Shown: positions 3,292 to 23,087 of the stretch, piece by piece | Numbering within the stretch: the first letter of the stretch is position 1 | Layout of the letters: every line of letters starts with the position of its first letter | Source: Vibrio atlanticus | GTDB lineage: Bacteria; Pseudomonadota; Gammaproteobacteria; Enterobacterales; Vibrionaceae | Reading direction: 5' to 3' | Assembly (NCBI RefSeq): GCF_024347315.1 | Contig: NZ_AP025461.1 | Coordinates: 930,001-994,000 of the forward strand | Length of the DNA: 64,000 nucleotides | Program-made: the position numbers and the translations under genes | The notes under the pieces: model-generated | What the model was told of the DNA's origin: nothing | What the model saw: only the letters and a program-made list of their open reading frames with translations | Database searches by the model: none

Positions 3292-4218
3292 TTACTGATG
3301 GTTAAGGTAAACACTAGAGCGTTGCTCTATCACTTTGAACAGACGCGAAAGCGCAAAGCATAAAGCAAAATATACGAAGCCTACAATCAGCCAGATCTCG
3401 AAGATCAAACCTGACGAGTTTGCCATTTCAGTTCCAACAAACGTCATCTCTTGGATGGAAATCAGAGAAACAATCGACGTGTCTTTAACCAAGGAGATTG
3501 CTTGGCCAGCCAATGGTGGGGTGATGGCAGTTAATACTTGTGGGCCAACCACAAATCGATACTTAGACAATGCAGACAAGCCAAGTGAATCGGCCGCTTC
3601 CCATTGGCCTTTAGGAATACCTTCTAAACCCGCTCGAATCACTTCCGCAATATAAGCCGAAGAGAGCAAACCAATACAAATAACACCAGACGCTAAGTTT
3701 TCCCAAAGGTTAGCTGGGCCGAACAGGAAACCTTGAACAGCGTTAATCTCGCCATTATGTTCACGTAAGATACTTTCTAAACCAAGTAATGGAATCAGTT
3801 GGTTAGAAACGAAGAAATAGAAGATGAAGACAAACACCAGTGGCGGAATATTTCGAACCAACTGGATAAAAATCAGTGCAGGCGTTCTGAAGAAAGCAAT
3901 CTTGGAGTGCCTTGCAACACCGAGTAATGTCCCAAAAGAAAGAGCTAACACCATGCTCCAGACACTCAAGCGCAGTGTAGCGATCAAACCTTGAAAAAAG
4001 TAGGGGATACTGCCTTGAGAAGGTGGAATGAAAATTAGGGTAAACGCATCTTCCCAGCGCCACTGGTAGTTGATACCAACAGCAGAACGATAATAAAGCC
4101 AGCCTGCAAACACACAAATGACAGCGAGTAACACGCCATCTAAAAGAGTAATGCGTTGATACCAAGGCTTCATATGAACGTTGGGCTTAGGTGTTGTTAA
4201 TGCGCTAGTACTACTCAC
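3292..4218 (-). CDS. Polar amino-acid ABC transporter, inner-membrane permease (HisM/GltK type)
   Basis: 308 residues with about five or six hydrophobic segments and the HEAT/HisMQ-type permease signature: QGLIATLRLSVWSM, then VELVRN-type LVRNIPPLVFVFIFYF, then the EAA loop (EVIRAGLEGIPKGQWEAADSLG). An N-terminal cytoplasmic tail of about 25 residues precedes the first membrane segment. The family forms a heterodimeric membrane channel with a second permease, here the 5218-6015 product. It is the last gene of a four-gene minus-strand operon, 177 bases after the binding-protein gene; a hairpin lies in that gap. The start is GTG at 4218 with AGGA about six bases upstream. The substrate is not determinable. 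Confidence 0.92.
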   Translation of the reverse strand: MSSTSALTTPKPNVHMKPWYQRITLLDGVLLAVICVFAGWLYYRSAVGINYQWRWEDAFTLIFIPPSQGSIPYFFQGLIATLRLSVWSMVLALSFGTLLGVARHSKIAFFRTPALIFIQLVRNIPPLVFVFIFYFFVSNQLIPLLGLESILREHNGEINAVQGFLFGPANLWENLASGVICIGLLSSAYIAEVIRAGLEGIPKGQWEAADSLGLSALSKYRFVVGPQVLTAITPPLAGQAISLVKDTSIVSLISIQEMTFVGTEMANSSGLIFEIWLIVGFVYFALCFALSRLFKVIEQRSSVYLNHQ

Positions 4219-4317
4219 GTCATTCCTGTTTAAACATTAATTATTATTGGGTTGTTGCTTGGATCTAAAACGAATCAAATAAAGCGACTTAAAAAGGCTA
4301 CTTAAATCGTCGATGAG

Positions 4318-4344
4318 AAGGCAGTGCAAACAGTGCACTGCCTT
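4318..4344 (-). other. Intercistronic hairpin after the binding-protein gene
   Basis: A perfect 10-bp stem (4318-4327 with 4335-4344) has a 7-base loop and no immediate T-run. It sits 52 bases downstream of the binding-protein stop and about 100 bases before the last permease start. Hairpins at this position commonly stabilise the upstream binding-protein mRNA or attenuate the distal gene, giving an excess of binding protein. That role is inference. Confidence 0.6.
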
Positions 4345-4395
4345 GATTTAGATTCGACAGATTAGCTCATATTAAAAAGTGAGCTCAACTTCAGA

Positions 4396-5205
4396 TTACT
4401 GACCTTGAGCAATCTGGTCTTGCCAATCTAAAGTAGAGAACCAGTACTCGTAACGCTCTTTCAACCAACCGTCTTCAGTACGTGCTTTGATCCATTCGTT
4501 GAAGAATTCTGCCTTGTCAGCTTCACCTAGGCGAACTGCAAATGCTTCGTTACCTTTTGATAGACGCTCTTCAAATGGAATAAATAGCGTGTCTGCGTTT
4601 TTGATCGTTTCGTGTTCTGGTTTTGGGCTAGACGCAATAACCGCGTGTGCGTTGCCGTTCAACACTTCTTGGAATGCTTGAGCATCGTCATCGAACTGAA
4701 GTACTTTTGCTTTCGGGAAGGTTTCACGAGCCACTTGAACAGTGAAAGCGCCACGGCGTGCAGCAATTTTTACGCGACGAGAATCAAAATCAGAGATTTG
4801 AGTAAAACCTTCCGCTAGCTCTTTATTAGCCGCCAGTTGAACGCCAGAGTGCGAGTAAGGTTCAGTGAACAGTACGCTTTTAGCTCGCGCTTCAGTGATA
4901 GACATACCGCCGATGATCACATCAAATTTTTTCGATAATAAAGAAGGGATAATGCCGTCCCATGCTGTCGGTACAAATTCGACTTTCCAACCAGAATCTT
5001 CGGCAAGGCGTTTCGCCACGTCGATTTCAAAGCCAACGAGATCTCCTTGTTTGTTACGCATCGCCCAAGGAACAAATGTCGACATACCAACGCGCAGTGA
5101 GCCACGTTCGTTGATTTTATCGAGGTTAGGCGTTTCAGAAGCAAGTGCAGGCAAACTTACGGCAAGCGCAAGTAGGGCTGTAATCGCGGTTTTAAATAGC
5201 TTCAT
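4396..5205 (-). CDS. Polar amino-acid ABC transporter, periplasmic substrate-binding protein (family 3)
   Basis: 269 residues with a cleavable signal peptide (Lys at residues 2 and 5, hydrophobic core, ALA cleavage region near residue 22). The mature part has the SBP family 3 layout: RGSLRVGMSTFVPW, then GFEIDVAKRLAED, then PTAWDGIIPSLLSKKFDVIIGGMSITEAR, followed by the second lobe. It captures an amino acid or related polar ligand in the periplasm and delivers it to the permease pair. AAGGA lies nine bases before the ATG. It is the third gene of the operon, 12 bases after the first permease. Ligand identity cannot be read from sequence. Confidence 0.93.
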   Translation of the reverse strand: MKLFKTAITALLALAVSLPALASETPNLDKINERGSLRVGMSTFVPWAMRNKQGDLVGFEIDVAKRLAEDSGWKVEFVPTAWDGIIPSLLSKKFDVIIGGMSITEARAKSVLFTEPYSHSGVQLAANKELAEGFTQISDFDSRRVKIAARRGAFTVQVARETFPKAKVLQFDDDAQAFQEVLNGNAHAVIASSPKPEHETIKNADTLFIPFEERLSKGNEAFAVRLGEADKAEFFNEWIKARTEDGWLKERYEYWFSTLDWQDQIAQGQ

Positions 5206-5217
5206 GCTGATAAATCC

Positions 5218-6015
5218 TTATTGTGTTCGCCAGTTAGATCCGAGCTTATGCTCAAGCCAAGCAGCAACGGCAGAAAGTGAAAGTGTGAGAGCAAGATAAA
5301 TGATCGCCACAGAGAACCAAATCTCGAATGGCATCGCGGTTTCAGAAACGATGTTTCTGGCTTCGGTTGTTAGGTCAAAGATAGCCATGACACTCACAAT
5401 CGAAGAGTTTTTAATAAGAGAGATTACTTCATTGGTCAAAGGCGGCAAGGTGCGTTGCACCACCTGAGGAAGAATCACATCCCAGTAAGTATAGGTCTTT
5501 GACAAACCCAAGGATTGAGCTGCTTCAAATTGTCCTCTCGCAATACCATTTAAACCGGCACGAAATATCTCGGCGGTGTAAGCGCCTTGGAAAAGTGCCA
5601 AGGCTAAAACGGCTGTGCTAAAGCGATCCAGCCCTAATACGGGGCCAAACACAAAATAGAGCAAATAAATTTGTACTAATAACGGCGTATTACGAATCAA
5701 CTCAACATAGCTGGTGGCTAAGGTGCGTCCAACTACAGAATTTGAGTTTCTCAATAGCGCTGTCGTTAAGCCAATAATCAGCGTCGCGACCAAAGAAATC
5801 AGAGAAATATTGATGGTAACCAGCAGCCCTTCAACTAATTCTGCAGGCCACCATTCACCATCTTCATAGAAAGCAATATAGTCCGGCACACGCTCCCATT
5901 GCCAGCTGTATCCCATGGTTTGTGCGCCAGAGTCGAGAATCCAAACAACAGCAGCCACCAGTACAACAATCTGTACCAAAGCAGATAGGGCGGGTTTAAT
6001 AATTCGAATCAACAT
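5218..6015 (-). CDS. Polar amino-acid ABC transporter, inner-membrane permease (HisQ/GltJ type)
   Basis: About 265 residues, hydrophobic throughout, with the HisMQ permease motifs: VEGLLVTINISLISL, LVELIRNTPLLVQIYLLYF and the ATPase-coupling EAA loop (EIFRAGLNGIARGQFEAAQSLG). The ATG at 6015 overlaps the stop of the ATPase gene as TGATG, a translational-coupling arrangement. A TTG one codon earlier is possible but less likely. It pairs with the second permease at 3292-4218 and with the ATPase encoded upstream. Confidence 0.92.
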   Translation of the reverse strand: MLIRIIKPALSALVQIVVLVAAVVWILDSGAQTMGYSWQWERVPDYIAFYEDGEWWPAELVEGLLVTINISLISLVATLIIGLTTALLRNSNSVVGRTLATSYVELIRNTPLLVQIYLLYFVFGPVLGLDRFSTAVLALALFQGAYTAEIFRAGLNGIARGQFEAAQSLGLSKTYTYWDVILPQVVQRTLPPLTNEVISLIKNSSIVSVMAIFDLTTEARNIVSETAMPFEIWFSVAIIYLALTLSLSAVAAWLEHKLGSNWRTQ

Positions 6016-6761
6016 CAATAAGTCAGGATCTGATTTAGGAACGCTTGAGTACGTTCATGTTGAGGGTTTTCAAAGAGCGCTTGTGGCGTATTCGATTCCA
6101 CAATTTGTCCTTCATCCATGAAGATAACGCGGTCGGCCACTTGTTTCGCAAAGCCCATTTCGTGGGTCACACACACCATGGTGATACCTTCGCTCGCCAG
6201 TTCAACCATCACGTCGAGCACTTCGTTGATCATCTCCGGATCAAGCGCTGAAGTCGGTTCATCAAAAAGCAGTAATTCAGGCTTCATGCACAGCGAACGG
6301 GCGATAGCTACACGTTGTTGCTGACCGCCAGAAAGTTGTACTGGGTATTTGTTGGCTTGTTCAGCGATGTGTACGCGCTCGAGATAGTGCATTGCAAGCT
6401 TCTCGGCTTCTCGTTTGCTTTTTTTCAGCGTACGTATTGGAGACAGAGTCAGGTTTTCAAGCACGGTAAGATGGGGGAATAAATGAAAATGCTGAAACAC
6501 CATTCCGACTTGGCCAGGTGTGTTGAATTTACTCGGAAGTACTTGTTCTAACACGCAAAGCTCGCCACTTTCGAAAGGTTCTAGCTGATTGATACAACGG
6601 ATTAAAGTTGATTTACCCGAACCTGATGGCCCGCAAATCACCAGTATCTCTCCTTGTTCAATCTTTAAATCGATATCCTTTAGGGCATGAAAATCACCAT
6701 ACCACTTGTTAAGTGACTTAAACTTAACCATTTCCTTGAGATTGTTCAAATCGTTGTTCAT
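6015..6761 (-). CDS. Polar amino-acid ABC transporter, ATP-binding protein (HisP/GlnQ type)
   Basis: 248 residues, a standard single ABC ATPase. It has Walker [10 protein letters not shown], a Q-loop ([16 protein letters not shown]), the signature [15 protein letters not shown], Walker [15 protein letters not shown] and the H-loop (VTHEMGFA). It drives import by the operon's permease pair and is the first gene of the operon. The ATG at 6761 has only a weak AGG upstream. An in-frame ATG at 6731 follows AAGGA but with too little spacing, so 6761 is kept with some doubt. Confidence 0.93.
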
Positions 6762-6986: not shown

Positions 6987-8135
6987 TTAGTGAATCGCAG
7001 ACTCTAAAATCTCACGCGTTTTCTCTGGCGTGATTGCTTGGTTTTCGCCAAGTTGCAGGTAACCGTGTGATTCAAGTTGAGCAACAACGTTGTCGATTGC
7101 TGCCGCTTTAGTTGCTTCGTAACCGTCGAACATAGTTGCAACGTCTAGGCTGTGGTAGAAGGCTTCGATTGCAGCAATAGTGCGCTCGGCTAAATCAGCA
7201 CCCGCTTCTAGGCCAAATACGTTGCGACCCATTTGCTCTAGCTTGCCACGCTTCGCTTCGATTTGATTACGAAGTAGTGAAGGTTGAACAATCGCAAGAG
7301 AACGTGCGTGGTCTACGTGCCATAGTGCTGTGAATTCGTGGCCAATCATATGTGTTGCCCAATCTTGAGGAACGCCAGTACCAATCAGGCCGTTAAGCGC
7401 TTGGTTTGCAGTCCACATTAGGTTTGCACGCCATGCGTCGTTGTCACGCTCGTCGTATTGCTTACCCAGTACAAGTAGGTTCTTAAGCAGTGTTTCTGCG
7501 TAACCGTCTTGAACCATCGCGTCTGTTGGCATTGTGATGTATTGCTCACATACGTGAACCCATGCATCAACTAAGCCGTTGATCAGTTGGCGCTCTGGCA
7601 GAGACTTCATTACATCTGGGTCCATAACCGCAAACTTCGGCTGTACCGCAGGGTTCATGAATGCCAGTTTCTCTTGAGTCTCTTTACGAGTGATTACCGC
7701 ACCCATGTTAGATTCAGAACCTGTCGCAGGAAGTGTCAGTACCGCACCAATTGGTGTCGCTTCTGTTACTTGGTGTTTACCCGCTAGGATATCCCAACCG
7801 TCGCCGTCGTATTTAGCCGCCGCAGCAACGTACTTAGAACCGTCGATTACTGAACCACCGCCAACAGCGATAATGAACTCTACGTTTTCTTCTTTAACAA
7901 GAGCGACGGCTTTATCTAGTGTCTCTTTCGTTGGGTTAGCTTCAACACCAGCGAACTCAATCCAAGCGTGATCCTTTAGAGATTCGACAACTTGGTCGTA
8001 AACACCATTGCTTTTGATTGAACCGCCACCGTAGATGACTAATACTTTCTTCGATGTATCAACCGCTTGGCTGATAGCGTTGATTTGGCCTTGGCCGAAG
8101 TGGATAACTGTAGGGTTAACATAAGTGAATTGCAT
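6987..8135 (-). CDS. yqhD: NADPH-dependent aldehyde reductase, iron-type alcohol dehydrogenase family (YqhD-like)
   Basis: 382 residues, matching the length of E. coli YqhD (about 387) and alignable by eye along the whole chain. It has the N-terminal dinucleotide fold (VLVIYGGGSIKSNG, AVGGGSVIDGSKY), then LPATGSESNMGAVI, NGLIGTGVPQDWATHM, and the metal-binding His cluster in HMIGHEFTALWHVDHAR. The known role of the family is reduction of short aldehydes such as glyoxals, acrolein and lipid-peroxidation products to alcohols. It is divergent from an AraC-family gene, the same arrangement as yqhD/yqhC in E. coli, which suggests aldehyde-induced expression. Confidence 0.92.
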   Translation of the reverse strand: MQFTYVNPTVIHFGQGQINAISQAVDTSKKVLVIYGGGSIKSNGVYDQVVESLKDHAWIEFAGVEANPTKETLDKAVALVKEENVEFIIAVGGGSVIDGSKYVAAAAKYDGDGWDILAGKHQVTEATPIGAVLTLPATGSESNMGAVITRKETQEKLAFMNPAVQPKFAVMDPDVMKSLPERQLINGLVDAWVHVCEQYITMPTDAMVQDGYAETLLKNLLVLGKQYDERDNDAWRANLMWTANQALNGLIGTGVPQDWATHMIGHEFTALWHVDHARSLAIVQPSLLRNQIEAKRGKLEQMGRNVFGLEAGADLAERTIAAIEAFYHSLDVATMFDGYEATKAAAIDNVVAQLESHGYLQLGENQAITPEKTREILESAIH

Positions 8136-8328
8136 TAGAGATTCCTTGTGTAAAGCTCAATTTGTTATTTTATTTGATTGCTCAATTTCTATATTTGCAT
8201 ATTAGTACAGTAATCTAGGGTGATGAAGAGCTGATCCTCCAAATAAATTGCCTATTTCTACAAACTTGATATTCTTTCTCCGCTTTAGCTTACTTACTCT
8301 TAGCACTTGGAATGGAAAGTCGCCACTT

Positions 8329-9213
8329 ATGAAAACACTCGCGCAGTTGTTACAGTCTTATGTAGAACACAAAGGTTGGGATGATCTCGAAGGGATCAGA
8401 GAAACTGAAATTGGCGGTGTGTGGTTGTATAGAAGCAGTGGCGGGAATCAGCGTCAGCCATTCACTTACCAGTCGGGTATTATCATGCTAGGGCAGGGTA
8501 AAAAGAACATCTATATTGGCGACAGACCCGTTACTTACGCGGCTGGTGATTACCTTGTGGTAGGCGTGCCAATGCCATTGGAGTGCGAAGCCTTGCCTGT
8601 AAATGGCGAACCATTGCTTGGTTTGTCGATCAGTATTGACTCTCAGCGCTTGCATAGCTTGGTAAAAAAGTTAGAAGACCAAGGCTTTCTAGAGAGCTAC
8701 TGCAACAAGCACAAGCAGAATTCGAGCGGCTTAGAGTCGACGCCAATGGAAGAGCAAATGCTGGAGAGCTTTACTCGATTGGTCAAAATGCTGCATTGCG
8801 ACATCGAAGCCAACATATTGGGTGATGCTATGGTCAGCGAAATTGTCTACCGTGCCTTAACCGGTTCAGAAGGGCGAGTGCTGTTTGATTTGGCTCATCA
8901 TGACGGTCATTACGCTCGTGTCGCTAAAGCACTATCTAAAGTGCATGAAGAATACGACCAAACCATTACTGTCCAATCGCTTGCCGACGAAGCAAACATG
9001 AGCGTGTCTGCCTTCCACAATGCATTCCGTAATGTCACCTTTGAATCACCTCTTCAATATTTGAAGAAGGTAAGACTCAACAAAGCCAAAGAACTGATTC
9101 AGCTAGAAGGCCTGCGCATAAGCGATGCTGCACGCCGAGTCGGCTACTCCAGCCCATCCCAGTTCAGTCGCGAATTTAAGCGCCACTTCAATACCACTCC
9201 GAGAGCGGCTTAG
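8329..9213 (+). CDS. AraC-family transcriptional regulator, YqhC-like activator of the divergent reductase
   Basis: About 294 residues from the ATG at 8329. The upstream in-frame start at 8248 would add a hydrophobic, non-conserved leader and is rejected. The N-terminal AraC_N-type cupin spans about residues 20-150 (GIIMLGQGKKNIYIGD, YAAGDYLVVGVPMPLECEA). Two helix-turn-helix units follow at about residues 215-290 (TVQSLADEANMSVSAFHNAFRNVT and RISDAARRVGYSSPSQFSREFKRHF). AraC_N regulators such as YqhC respond to aldehydes or redox changes and activate the neighbouring reductase. Here the two genes are divergent with a 193-base shared promoter region. Confidence 0.88.
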   Translation: MKTLAQLLQSYVEHKGWDDLEGIRETEIGGVWLYRSSGGNQRQPFTYQSGIIMLGQGKKNIYIGDRPVTYAAGDYLVVGVPMPLECEALPVNGEPLLGLSISIDSQRLHSLVKKLEDQGFLESYCNKHKQNSSGLESTPMEEQMLESFTRLVKMLHCDIEANILGDAMVSEIVYRALTGSEGRVLFDLAHHDGHYARVAKALSKVHEEYDQTITVQSLADEANMSVSAFHNAFRNVTFESPLQYLKKVRLNKAKELIQLEGLRISDAARRVGYSSPSQFSREFKRHFNTTPRAA

Positions 9214-9862: not shown

Positions 9863-11110
9863 ATGAGTAGCGATATCATTAAAATTTCAAGAAATACTGA
9901 AAATGCACCAATTAATTCTGTATCTACACAAACGGTCGCTTTTTCTCATTATAATAACTTTTCAGCTCAATTACCTGTTGACCCTAAAACAGGTGAAGTA
10001 GTGATTGGTGATATTAAAGACCAAGCAGCACAATGCTTAAATAATATTAAGGCCATTGTTGAAAGCATCGACCATGTTATGGATGATGTTGTGAAGATTA
10101 ATGTTTTCGTTAAGAATATTTCTGATATCGATGCTATTGATGAAGTTTACAAAAGCTTCTTCCAAAACAGCCTCCCTACACGCACAGTCGTGGGCGTAGC
10201 TGCGCTACCGAACAGTGACGCTTTAGTTCAAATGGATGCGCTTATTTCAAACGGCGAAGGCACTAAACCACAAGCACCTTGCGCGCTAGTTAAGGTATCA
10301 AGAAATACAGATAACGCGCCTCAAAGAACTGTATCGACGCAGACTGCGGCTTTTTCTCACTACAACAACCTTTCGGCTCAATTGCCTATCGATGTAAATA
10401 CAGGTGAGTTGGTTTCAGGTGGTATCACAGAGCAAACGGCACAATGTCTATCAAACATTAAAGCGGTTCTAGAGAGTATCGGTCATGTCATGAATGATGT
10501 GGTTAAAACGACTATCTACGTGAAAAATATCGCAGATGCGGAAGTGGTAAATGAAGTATGTGCTAAATTCTTCCCAAGCTACGTTCCTGCTCGTACCGTT
10601 GTTAACGCCGCTGAACTACCAATGGGCGCTTTAATTCAAATTGATACATCCGTTTCACATGGTGACGGTACACCGCCACAATTACCAGAAGACACTCGCT
10701 TACTGGTTATTGAAGCTAATAATACTGTTGCTGCACCATTCATGCCTTATTCGCACACCGTTGCTTTCTCTCACTACAATCATATTTCAGGCCAATTACC
10801 TTTAGACCCGAAGACAAATCAAGTGGTTGCTGGTGGTGTAAAAGAGCAAGCTGAACAATGTTTGAAAAATATTAAGGCGATCATTGAAAGTGTTGATCAT
10901 AGTATGGACGATACAGTGAAAATCAATATTCAGCTTAAAAATGTTTCAGACATTGATACAGTGAACGAGGTCTACACAACATTCTTTAATGCTGAATTAC
11001 CGGCAAGAACGGTGGTTGGGGTTTCAGAGATTCCTATGAATGCTCTAATTCAAATTGATGCAGTCGTTTCCAACTGCGAAGGTACACCACCACAAGATGT
11101 TATTGCTTAA
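9863..11110 (+). CDS. Triple-RidA fusion protein (three tandem RidA/YjgF/UK114 domains)
   Basis: 415 residues from the ATG at 9863, preceded by AAAAGGA at good spacing; an earlier in-frame start at 9815 lacks a ribosome-binding site. The chain is three RidA domains in tandem: about residues 4-132, 141-269 and 278-407, with a repeat pitch of 137-138 residues. Each has the QLP..P.TG..V strand, the QxxQCLxNIKAxxESxxHxMxDxVK helix and the PxRTVV signature. RidA enzymes deaminate reactive enamines/imines made by PLP enzymes. They work as homotrimers with active sites between subunits, so three fused copies could fold as a single-chain pseudo-trimer. The substrate arginine is kept in all three (R107, R244, R382). 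The residue matching E. coli Glu120 is Gln in each (Q123, Q259, Q397). No signal peptide. Function is uncertain: a modified deaminase or a ligand-binding protein. Confidence 0.9.
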   Translation: MSSDIIKISRNTENAPINSVSTQTVAFSHYNNFSAQLPVDPKTGEVVIGDIKDQAAQCLNNIKAIVESIDHVMDDVVKINVFVKNISDIDAIDEVYKSFFQNSLPTRTVVGVAALPNSDALVQMDALISNGEGTKPQAPCALVKVSRNTDNAPQRTVSTQTAAFSHYNNLSAQLPIDVNTGELVSGGITEQTAQCLSNIKAVLESIGHVMNDVVKTTIYVKNIADAEVVNEVCAKFFPSYVPARTVVNAAELPMGALIQIDTSVSHGDGTPPQLPEDTRLLVIEANNTVAAPFMPYSHTVAFSHYNHISGQLPLDPKTNQVVAGGVKEQAEQCLKNIKAIIESVDHSMDDTVKINIQLKNVSDIDTVNEVYTTFFNAELPARTVVGVSEIPMNALIQIDAVVSNCEGTPPQDVIA

Positions 11111-11819: not shown

Positions 11820-12197
11820 GTGAGAAAGAAAATTAAGTGTATGCAATTTCGAGTTATTTTATTGTTGTGCCTAGCGATAGTGGGGTGTTCATCTAATCAA
11901 GAGCTAACACCTGATCCGACAACTATCACGCTTTTTTATGGTGAGACGTCGATCTCGGCGGGTGTGTTAGAAGATAAAACATTTAATTCGGTTCTAGCCG
12001 ATAGAAGAGAGAGTGTTACTCTCTCGGGCTCACTATCAAAGCAAAACTCAGGTTACTTAGTTGATATCTTAGTGATCAGAGAAAATAGAGCACCACGTTC
12101 AAAGCGCCAATTAAACACCTTACTTCTTATGAAGCCGGGAGAATTAGTGGATGTTGGCGGTGTGAACAATGATGTGTTCAGAGTCATTCTAGAGTAA
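11820..12197 (+). CDS. Small predicted lipoprotein of unknown function
   Basis: Up to 125 residues. A basic N-terminus, a hydrophobic stretch and the lipobox LAIVGC predict lipidation, leaving about a 100-residue mature protein (SSNQELTPDPTT...). The remainder is predicted beta-rich with no recognised domain. The start is uncertain: GTG at 11820 or ATG at 11841. The latter gives a cleaner signal peptide (MQFRVILLLCLAIVGC). It follows the LprI-like gene by about 80 bases in the same direction. Confidence 0.65.
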   Translation: MRKKIKCMQFRVILLLCLAIVGCSSNQELTPDPTTITLFYGETSISAGVLEDKTFNSVLADRRESVTLSGSLSKQNSGYLVDILVIRENRAPRSKRQLNTLLLMKPGELVDVGGVNNDVFRVILE

Positions 12198-17376: not shown

Positions 17377-17739
17377 GTGAAAATCCATAGAATTAACCCG
17401 ACCAAACGTTGGTCTGATGTGACTGTGTTTAACGGTATTGCAAGCTTTGTTGAAGTACCAGAGACGGATACAACGGCAGGAATTAAGAGTCAGGTTCAGC
17501 AAATCTTCGAACAAGCTGAAGAAATGATGAGTTTGGTAGACAGCGATAAATCTCGTGTATTGTCAGTGACTATTTACCTAACGGATTTCGCTAACTTTGA
17601 TGCACTCAATGAAGTGTGGGAAGAGTGGTTCCCTGAAGGTTGCGCGCCAAGCCGTGCGTGCGTGAAAGCAGAACTCGCTAACCCTGAACTATTGGTTGAG
17701 ATGTCATTCATGGTTGCTGCTGGTGAAAAGTTTCAATAA
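17377..17739 (+). CDS. Stand-alone RidA-family protein
   Basis: 120 residues, one RidA/YjgF domain of normal length. It has VEVPETDTTAGIKSQVQQIFEQAEEMM, LSVTIYLTDFANFDALNEVWEEWFP and APSRACV. Unlike the triple-domain protein, it keeps both the substrate arginine (R93) and a Glu at the Glu120-equivalent position (E108 in LLVEMS). It can plausibly act as an enamine/imine deaminase trimer. The start is GTG at 17377 with AGAAGAG upstream. A strong terminator follows at 17806. Confidence 0.9.
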   Translation: MKIHRINPTKRWSDVTVFNGIASFVEVPETDTTAGIKSQVQQIFEQAEEMMSLVDSDKSRVLSVTIYLTDFANFDALNEVWEEWFPEGCAPSRACVKAELANPELLVEMSFMVAAGEKFQ

Positions 17740-19919: not shown

Positions 19920-22900
19920 ATGCACCTAAATCAAGGAAGAGTGGCCAAAAAGGTTTTTACACTCAGTACTCTCACTGCGTCATGCTTAATGGCTTTCAAT
20001 AGCTATGCGGCTGTGGATTGCTCAACGTTAGAAGCGTGGGATCCTGCCACGGTTTACACCGGCGGCGATCAAGTTTCACATGACAGCAGCGCGTACTCAG
20101 CAAATTACTGGAATCAGAACAACAACCCAAGTCAATTTGAAGGTGACTACGCACAGTGGAAAAAGCTAGATGTGTGTAGCGGCAATGGAGGTGGAGGTAC
20201 ACCAAATGAAGCACCAACGGCTTCGTTAACGACTCCATCTGCCTCTGACATGTTCACTGAAGGCGATAACGTGGTGTTGAGTGCAACGGCGCTAGATTCC
20301 GACGGCAGTGTTACTTCGGTTGAATTCTTCATTGATGGAACTTCAGTCGCGGTTGTTACAGCAGCACCTTTCGAAGCGGTTTGGGCTGCAACGTCTGGTA
20401 GCCATCAGGTTTCGGTTGTTGCTACAGACAATGAAGGCGCGGCTAGCTTAGCGAGCGCGGTCTCTATTTCTGTCGATTCAGTTACACCTGGAAATGAAGC
20501 GCCGACAGTTTCGGTTGCGCTTTCTGCATCTTCGGTCGATGTTGGTGGTGTGGTGACGCTTACCGCAACAGCAACAGACAGCGATGGCACGGTTGATAAG
20601 GTCGATTTTTATGTGGCAGGTTCTTTAGTCGGAACGGCTGCGACAAGCCCATACACGCTTAACTACACAACCACTCAAGCAGGCTCTCTAGCGGTTTACG
20701 CGAAAGCGACAGACAATCAAGGGGCAACGGCTGAATCAGCACTGACTTCTTTGACAGTCAATGGCGGCACAACAGTGAGTACATGTCGACCTGATGGCTT
20801 GTATCAAACTCAAGGTGTCGATGTTCCTTACTGTACGATTTACGATGATGAAGGCCGTGAGAAAATGGGCGCGGATCATCCACGTCGTGTTATTGGTTAC
20901 TTCACAAGTTGGCGTGCCGGGGATGACCCACAAGCCGCTTATTTGGTTAATGACATTCCTTGGGAACAACTCACACACATTAACTACGCTTTCGTGAGCA
21001 TTGGCTCAGATGGCAAAGTAAACGTGGGTGATGTGAACGATCCGAACAACGCAGCGGTTGGTAAAGAGTGGCCGGGCGTGGAAGTTGACCCTGCATTAGG
21101 CTTCAAAGGTCACTTCGGTGCATTAGCGACAGCGAAGAAAAAACACGATGTTAAGACTTTAATCTCAATCGGTGGTTGGGCGGAGACCGGTGGCCACTTT
21201 GCCACTGATGGTAGCCGAGTGGCTGATGGTGGTTTCTATACCATGACGACCAATGCTGACGGTTCTATTAACCATCAAGGTATCGAAACATTCGCAACTT
21301 CAGCGGTTGAAATGCTTCGTAAATACCAGTTCGATGGTCTAGATATCGATTATGAATACCCAACGTCAATGGCGGGCGCAGGTAATCCGTACGATAAAGA
21401 CTTTATGGAACCACGTCGTCAATACCTATGGGCTTCTTACCAAGTGTTGATGAAAGTGTTGCGTGAGAAGCTTGATGTAGCCTCTGCGCAAGACGGCAAT
21501 CACTACATGTTAACGATCGCGGCGCCTTCTTCGGGTTACCTACTGCGCGGTATGGAAACATTCGATGTCACCAAGTACCTCGATTACGTAAACATCATGT
21601 CTTATGACCTTCACGGTGCGTGGAACGATCACGTAGGTCATAACGCTGCGTTGTTTGATACAGGTAAAGATTCAGAGTTAGCACAGTGGAACGTATACGG
21701 CACAGCGGCTTACGGCGGTATCGGTTATCTGAATACGGATTGGGCCTACCACTACTTCCGTGGTTCTATGCCAGCAGGTCGTATTAACATCGGTGTGCCT
21801 TACTACACACGTGGTTGGCAAGGTGTAACTGGTGGTGAGAATGGTCTTTGGGGCCGAGCAGCACTGCCAAACCAAGCTGAATGCTCAGCAGGTACTGGTG
21901 AAGGCGAGAAGAACAACTGTGGCCATGGCGCAATTGGTATCGATAACATGTGGCACGATACTGATCCGAAAGGCAACGAAATGGGTGCAGGTTCAAACCC
22001 AATGTGGCATGCGAAGAACTTAGAGAAAGGCATTTGGGGTTCTTATGCAGCAGCTTACAAGCTTGATCCTGTTAACGATCCTTCAGATGTTCTAACGGGG
22101 ACTTACACGCGTAACTATGACAGCGTGGCTGTTGCTCCTTGGTTGTGGAACGCAGAGAAGGGCGTATTCCTTTCAACGGAAGATAAAGATTCTATCGATG
22201 TGAAAGCCGATTACGTTATCGACAAAGAAATCGGTGGCATCATGTTCTGGGAACTAGCAGGGGATTACAACTGTTACGTACTCGATGCGAACGGTAACCG
22301 AACTTCAATCGATACAACCGAACAGGCGTGTAATAGCGGAAACGGTGAGTTCCACATGGGTAACACTATGACGAAAGCTATCTACGATAAGTTTAAGTCA
22401 GCTACTCCATATGGAAACAAGGTTGCAACGGGTGCTATCCCAACGGAAGCATTAGATATTACTGTCTCTGTAGGTGGCTTCAAAGTCGGTGATCAAAACT
22501 ATCCAATTAACCCTAAGATCACGTTTAAAAACAATACAGGTCAAGCGCTTCCTGGTGGTACTGAGTTCCAGTTCGATATCCCAGTGTCTGCACCTGATAA
22601 CGCAAAAGACCAATCGGGTGGTGGCTTATCCGTTATTGCTTCTGGTCACACTCGTGCCAATAATATTGGTGGTCTAGATGGTCCGATGCACAGAGTAGCG
22701 TTTACGTTACCTGCATGGAAAGAGCTTCCTGCTGGTGGTGTGTATGAACTCGATATGGTTTATTACTTGCCAATTTCTGGCCCTGCAAACTATACAGTGA
22801 ATGTGAATAGTGTCGATTATGCATTTAGCTTTGAGCAGCCGGATCTACCACTGGGTGATATCAGTACTGGTGGCGGTAATCCTGGTGATGGCGGTACCAA

Positions 22901-23087
22901 CCCAGGTACATGCGATACTGCGGGTTTAGCTGTATATCCCGATTTACCTCAGAAAGATTGGGCGGGTAACCCAAGCCACGCAAACACGGGCGACCAAGTG
23001 GTTCATAACGGTAGTGTTTACCAAGCAAACTGGTGGACAAGTGCCGAGCCGGGTAGTGACGGCAGTTGGACCAAAGTGTGCTCTTAA
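19920..23087 (+). CDS. Secreted multidomain chitinase (GH18)
   Basis: 1055 residues. Domains in order: signal peptide (about 1-30, ending SYAA); chitin-binding CBM5/12-like module (about 32-80, [21 protein letters not shown]); two Ig/PKD-like modules (about 95-190 and 198-288, each with the ATDSDG pattern); GH18 catalytic domain (about 310-830). The catalytic motif is DGLDIDYE at residues 472-479, with E479 as the acid/base. A linker module (about 850-985) follows, then a Gly-rich linker and a second CBM5/12-like domain (about 1003-1055, [25 protein letters not shown]). It hydrolyses chitin outside the cell, probably exported by type II secretion. Chitin-binding modules at both ends are typical of enzymes acting on crystalline chitin. 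A perfect terminator follows. Confidence 0.95.

Follow-up and report, generated by a model that had tools for sequence, protein, structure and literature searches.

The 64,000-nucleotide stretch of Vibrio atlanticus DNA analysed here (the window; positions 930,001 to 994,000 of contig NZ_AP025461.1) carries a gene for a protein built of three consecutive RidA domains, a layout known as 3x-RidA. The genome, of 5.1 Mb, comprises three contigs, and contig C2 holds the gene. Its frame is open from 9863 to 11110 on the forward strand and comprises 415 codons and a stop; AAGGA, read by eye, stands 8 bases upstream of the ATG, and frame 1 of the opposite strand is crowded with stops over the same interval. 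Promoter and terminator scans gave results similar to those for shuffled sequence (6 versus 7.8 and 2 versus 1.5, respectively). The 415-residue translation, P0001, belongs to the Rid family: the Pfam model PF01042 scored 249.4 bits (cut-off 27.3, E 6.3e-75) and the NCBIfam model TIGR00004 282 bits (cut-off 106.25), each in three stretches of the chain. With boundaries chosen in this analysis, domain 1 (D1) spans residues 1-139 (9863..10279, +), domain 2 (D2) residues 140-279 (10280..10699, +) and domain 3 (D3) residues 280-415 (10700..11107, +), and the invariant histidines of an FSHYN motif, at residues 29, 166 and 304, give a domain pitch of 137 and 138 residues. The three complete RidA domains at this spacing that an earlier note had read from the DNA are thereby borne out. 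The domains are joined by a D1-D2 linker of residues 130-143 (10250..10291, +), which has no regular structure and a predicted local distance difference test score (pLDDT) of about 57 over residues 131-140, and by a D2-D3 linker of residues 266-281 (10658..10705, +), with a pLDDT of about 59 over residues 271-280, which opens with the sequence HGDGTPPQ (residues 266-273), without variation in 55 aligned rows.

Rid proteins are widespread. Because homologues in many genomes, at 56-96% identity, share the three-domain layout, we could rule out that it reflects an assembly artefact or a chance fusion. The earlier note, knowing of no characterised protein with this layout, had taken it to be new, a view that does not survive: Niehaus et al. 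(2015; PMC4433059) named the layout 3x-RidA, described it as 'presumably covalently linked trimer units' and gave EF_0115 of Enterococcus faecalis V583 as an example, and solved single-chain relatives exist in AtzD (PMC3758960) and the chorismatases. In layout P0001 is no different from the published 3x-RidA; the Vibrio protein is a member of an already named kind, and as an architectural curiosity the triple RidA was known. The E. faecalis triple in our set (L116) is 56% identical to P0001 and adjoins a family 20 glycosyl hydrolase. These surroundings would fit those of EF_0114/EF_0115. Among the matches listed from the open-licence PubMed Central literature we found no later characterisation or bench work on 3x-RidA, which does not show its absence. 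What the present analysis adds is an apparent single triplication, a six-phylum spread, an Arg/Gln/FSHYN signature, position-dependent pockets and a urease/agmatine gene neighbourhood. The residue signature and this neighbourhood do not appear in the portion of PMC4433059 compared, and are the parts that deserve specialist attention.

The structure prediction of the full chain proposed in the earlier note placed the three domains in one packed body. AlphaFold2, given the single chain of P0001, returned this arrangement with a predicted template modelling score (pTM) of 0.92, and a Bacillus homologue yielded the same single body with a pTM of 0.82 and lower local confidence. Both models align almost end to end with single-chain chorismatases, the best whole-chain structural match; for FkbO/Hyg5 (4bps, 5a3k, 5ag3) the likeness covers 282-291 residues at 2.9-3.3 A, but at only 13-17% identity, and chorismatase membership can be ruled out on sequence (TIGR04444, 15 bits; cut-off 325). 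In Hyg5 the catalytic residue is Glu334 (excerpt of PMC7170507). The cyanuric acid hydrolase AtzD likewise concatenates three YjgF-like units in one chain, but its units have four strands and share 9-18% identity, and it possesses a central Ser-Lys site besides a metal site (excerpt of PMC3758960), whereas 3x-RidA retains full RidA domains and the cleft arginine. In AtzD, evolution took the same route to a single chain. It was absent from the best 50 structural matches listed for the models, which excludes nothing, and no AtzD-type family was found among Pfam and NCBIfam matches of P0001 at E up to 1. By sequence, no PDB chain covered all three domains among the matches listed (50 rows; best 60 of 63), which were Rid chains with one domain and no more than 165 residues, plus four weak matches with E values of 0.011 or above.

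In addition, the contacts that hold single RidAs together appear to be kept. A Lys136/Glu182 pair holds the Arabidopsis RidA trimer together (excerpt of PMC4960622), and by our placement it would correspond to Lys73/Glu122 of E. coli RidA. Across 98 distinct full-length triples, query included, which form the basis of the residue counts below, the equivalent pair was basic in 293 of 294 domain cells and acidic in 293 of 294. The covalently linked trimer unit that Niehaus et al. presumed is what the AlphaFold2 models and the chorismatase match predict, and the covalent pseudo-trimer put forward in the earlier note stands as a prediction, resting on the two pTM values, the chorismatase match and an interface pair kept in each domain.

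We next compared the ligand pocket with that of single RidAs. For TdcF, seven pocket residues have been named, among which Glu120 bonds both across the subunit interface and to ligands (excerpt of PMC1884159). Our comparison set comprised 15 single RidAs, obtained from 15 of 19 loci tried and picked by a pattern requiring [SA][GA]Q plus Arg or Asn at position 105; since the pattern demands them, the counts for Ser30, Gly31 and Arg105 are partly built in, unlike those for Tyr17, Lys73, Asn88, Pro114, Glu120 and Glu122, each of which was present in 15/15, with Asn56 in 14/15. A further 15 triples, from Bacillota, E. faecalis, other Vibrio/Photobacterium and two members of another gammaproteobacterial family-level group, served as an extension of the main set. 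The equivalent of Arg105, the conserved substrate-binding arginine by which PMC4433059 delimits the RidA to Rid3 group, is found in all three domains of P0001: Arg107 in D1 (10181..10183, +; Arg in 95/98 triples and 11/15 of the further ones), Arg244 in D2 (10592..10594, +; 97/98 and 13/15) and Arg382 in D3 (11006..11008, +; 98/98 and 15/15). The Glu120 place of the canonical pocket (PMC1884159), in contrast, holds glutamine throughout, as Gln123 (10229..10231, +; Gln in 98/98), Gln259 (10637..10639, +; 98/98) and Gln397 (11051..11053, +; 97/98), and in 15/15 of the further triples at each place. Glu120 lies outside the definition of 3x-RidA (PMC4433059); with glutamine in every domain, we did not file P0001 as a canonical RidA. 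The FSHYN motifs (9941..9955 in D1, 10352..10366 in D2 and 10766..10780 in D3, all +) have their histidine in 98/98 triples each, and the further triples had both this histidine and the Glu120-place glutamine in 45/45 domains.

Other pocket places differ by position. Asn56 was kept in 98/98 D1, 98/98 D2 and 96/98 D3, but the Tyr17 place held Ser in 88/98 D1 and 60/98 D2 and Tyr in 69/98 D3, and the Gly31 place Ala in 98/98 D1 and 80/98 D2 and Gly in 67/98 D3. In P0001 itself every domain has Asn56, Arg105 and Pro114; Asn88 is found in D2 and D3, and Tyr17 and Gly31 in D3 only. The further triples differed from the main set, with Tyr17 retained in 8/15 D1 but 2/15 D3. Which domain keeps Tyr17 varied by lineage: in Bacillota-type triples (L111, L116, L121-L122, L153-L160) D1 often reads GPYSQ and D3 has Leu, and in Vibrio-type triples, such as P0001, the place is Ser in D1 and often Tyr in D3. 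Set against the RidA/TdcF homotrimers, 3x-RidA shares the domain fold, Arg105, Asn56, Pro114 (two domains) and the interface Lys/acid pair, but differs in having one chain instead of three, Gln for Glu120, mostly Asp for Glu122, His in place of Asn25 followed by a polar HYNN stretch, and Tyr17 and Gly31 changed by position. Judged from the alignments, the pocket is altered alike and conservedly in all three putative sites, with smaller position- and lineage-specific differences. The strongest departures, Gln for Glu120 and FSHYN, are shared by the three domains, so that the family resembles a re-tooled trimer more than three sites that are drifting apart. The idea in the earlier note that each site was free to diverge therefore holds in part, for the equivalents of Tyr17, Gly31 and Asn88, but not for the Gln and FSHYN changes. 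A division into one live and two dead sites was not supported as such, the arginine being kept in nearly all domains, with some distant D1 and D2 lacking it.

To follow up the distribution of three-domain RidA architectures, which the earlier note had also suggested, we searched several genome sets and found a patchy spread over six phyla, three of them represented only by metagenome-assembled genome (MAG) bins. Within the same genus, 75 of 196 genomes had a match at E <= 1e-30, mostly of full length, and some had two or three; in two genomes of the genus (G091 and G117) the triple RidA occurred only as separate pieces. Of 255 stretches from a species collection, 234 held a gene for a relative; the loci analysed below are the best 80 of the 234, a set heavy in Vibrio and Photobacterium. 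It also takes in Aliivibrio, Shewanella, Moritella, Endozoicomonas, Ferrimonas, Oceanisphaera, Marinobacter, Flavobacterium, Ancylomarina, Labilibaculum, Bacillus, Sporosarcina and Paraclostridium, as well as MAG bins, some of them assigned to Spirochaetota, Verrucomicrobiota and Thermoleophilia. In phylum-wide draws, scored at E <= 1e-60, 3x-RidA is rare: it was present in 7/349 genomes of Pseudomonadota (5 of the 7 in the query's genus, query included), 9/299 of Bacillota (centre genome counted) and 1/296 of Bacteroidota, namely the centre genome itself. Plasmid records carried it in 12 of 72,556 cases.

We then cut 22 triples into 66 domains and placed them in a tree with the 15 single RidAs (81 rows, 137 columns; bootstrap not settled). 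All 66 domains fell on one side of a branch with support 100/99, with a D1 group at 97/87, a D3 group at 100/99 and D2 as the remainder, for which the simplest reading would be one ancestral triplication, the three positions having stayed distinct ever since. A tree of 55 whole proteins needed five changes for Pseudomonadota and four for Bacteroidota; together with the patchy spread, these phylum changes suggest transfer between phyla, although paralogues or mis-binned contigs can yield the same pattern.

The surroundings of the gene were examined with nine carbamate-related probes within 8 kb at the 80 loci, which fall into 28 genus-level groups taken from record titles, some of them MAG bins. 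A probe match lay near 3x-RidA in 26/80 loci, and urease, agmatine-pathway or carbamoyltransferase genes did so in 9/28 groups: Flavobacterium (11/11 loci), Oceanisphaera (4/4), Marinobacter (2/2), Photobacterium (4/19), and single loci of Aliivibrio, Moritella, Endozoicomonas, Ferrimonas and a Spirochaetes bin. Of ten neighbour proteins checked, eight strongly matched a family: urease alpha, UreG, carbamate kinase and agmatine deiminase with one protein each, aspartate carbamoyltransferase with two, and putrescine carbamoyltransferase also with two, one above and one below the family cut-off. In one Flavobacterium locus (L069), UreG, UreD and a urea transporter lie upstream of 3x-RidA on the same strand, and in another (L070, 3418-9221) a urea transporter, a TonB-plug protein, a DUF2490 protein and 3x-RidA follow one another on the same strand with short gaps, in what looks like one transcription unit. 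A fixed operon could be ruled out, most copies being solitary or among varying neighbours.

The chance of a random gene lying that near a marker was 0.8-2.4%, mean 1.5%, a base rate obtained with three probes, against nine for the observed matches, in 13 genomes, 7 of which were chosen for showing the link. The binomial tail for at least 8 of 28 groups is 7e-9 at 1.5% and 5e-5 at 5%; Oceanisphaera and Marinobacter are sisters in the protein tree (98/87), and their neighbourhoods may represent a single event. A marker was nearby for 8/15 triples versus 4/26 single RidAs, a comparison that is subject to the same selection and left out the own-genome single RidA at C2:947473, which lies in the window and has no marker near. 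Canonical RidA also clusters with carbamoyl-phosphate genes (excerpt of PMC4433059), and one single RidA of the V. atlanticus genome lies beside two carbamoyltransferase matches. The words 'urease' and 'agmatine' do not occur in the main text of PMC4433059, and no title among the literature matches listed, as far as these titles go, states such a link for triple RidA.

We consider it probable that 3x-RidA arose by an ancient triplication, forms the equivalent of a RidA trimer within one chain, carries out Rid-type imine/enamine hydrolysis and is used on the carbamate side of metabolism in some lineages. The three domains of one chain are predicted to fold as the trimer does, and, by comparison with RidA structures, three ligand clefts would lie between neighbouring domains, each retaining in its sequence the substrate-binding arginine but with Gln for the Glu120 of single RidAs. 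The most likely activity would be Rid-like hydrolysis of small reactive carboxylate-bearing imines or enamines, or of chemically similar species. In several lineages the gene may serve alongside the urease, agmatine-pathway or carbamoyl-phosphate genes beside it, whose products are carbamate or carbamoyl phosphate; in the Vibrio splendidus group it lies away from such genes. Several observations weigh against this account. Canonical 2-aminoacrylate activity is not assured, because Glu120, and in many domains also Tyr17 and Gly31, are changed, and some distant triples lack the arginine in D1 (4/15) or D2 (2/15). Only the best of five AlphaFold2 models of P0001 was so confident, the others having mean pLDDT values of 77.5, 75.2, 64.8 and 36.7. 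Finally, the nine probes found no carbamate-related neighbour within 8 kb in 19/28 groups, among them Vibrio (0/18 loci), nor at the 3x-RidA gene of the window.

A more far-reaching proposal, to which we give only tentative credence, is that 3x-RidA would form an enzyme family of its own, whose re-tooled site, with Gln for Glu120 and FSHYN in all three domains, acts on reactive species derived from carbamoyl groups, carbamate or urea. Such a family would have entered urease and agmatine-deiminase clusters independently and been passed between phyla, with position-specific pockets divided differently by lineage. The Rid link to carbamoyl phosphate has no defined chemistry (PMC4433059), and a covalent trimer with individually changeable sites and a urease/agmatine linkage offers a practical handle on that question.

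An enzyme of new chemistry that re-uses the pseudo-trimer, as chorismatases and AtzD do, with one cleft or a possible central meeting place of the FSHYN motifs active and the other clefts structural, seems unlikely to us. The chorismatases are the best structural match, the active site of AtzD has been relocated to the central barrel (excerpt of PMC3758960), the FSHYN His and Tyr are each present in 98/98 triples in all three domains, exceeding the constancy of any single-RidA turn residue, and Arg occurs in 113/113 D3 whereas D1 and D2 can lose it; yet Arg105 is retained in nearly all domains, and the chorismatase model scores far below its cut-off. We find it somewhat less plausible still that catalysis has been lost and 3x-RidA acts as a ligand sensor, chaperone or regulator. 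Such a role would accord with Gln in 97-98/98 triples per domain at the ligand-bonding Glu120 of TdcF (excerpt of PMC1884159) and with the chaperone activity reported for chlorinated E. coli RidA (PMC4284807), but the arginine needed for imine hydrolysis is retained, Glu120 to Ala had little effect in Salmonella enterica RidA (PMC4433059), and the plant E180A variant retained at least a quarter of its activity (excerpt of PMC4960622). That the domains fail to close within one chain, so that three chains form RidA-like trimers or swap domains, is very improbable given the pTM values, the near end-to-end match to monomeric-chain chorismatases and the agreement of two homologues, even though pLDDT is low in the linkers, each about 14-16 residues long, AlphaFold2 received a single chain only, and the alignments of some RidA chains to the second model run over domain borders (for example 8qom_A, model 27-286, 132 residues, root-mean-square deviation 3.3), which could hint at swapped edge strands.

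The window holds further genes around the triple RidA. A single-domain Rid gene of 120 residues lies 6.3 kb downstream (17377-17739, +); it scored 69.3 bits with PF01042, above the cut-off, and 45.5 bits with TIGR00004, below 106.25. A relative occurs at nine Vibrio splendidus-group loci. Upstream, at 6987-9213, an AraC-type regulator (+) and a gene resembling iron-dependent alcohol dehydrogenases (-) accompany the triple RidA, the regulator in 10/80 and the dehydrogenase-like gene in 11/80 loci, almost all of which belong to the splendidus group. Polar amino-acid type ABC transporter genes at 3292-6761 (-) encode two permeases, a binding protein and an ATPase, none of which exceeded an equivalog cut-off for a named substrate. 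After the triple RidA come an LprI-like protein (PF07007; 11320-11739, +) and a small protein that matched no family (11820-12197, +), a relative of which is grouped in 11/80 loci, and at 19920-23087 (+) lies the gene for a 1055-residue chitinase with GH18, ChiC, Big_7 and chitin-binding modules.
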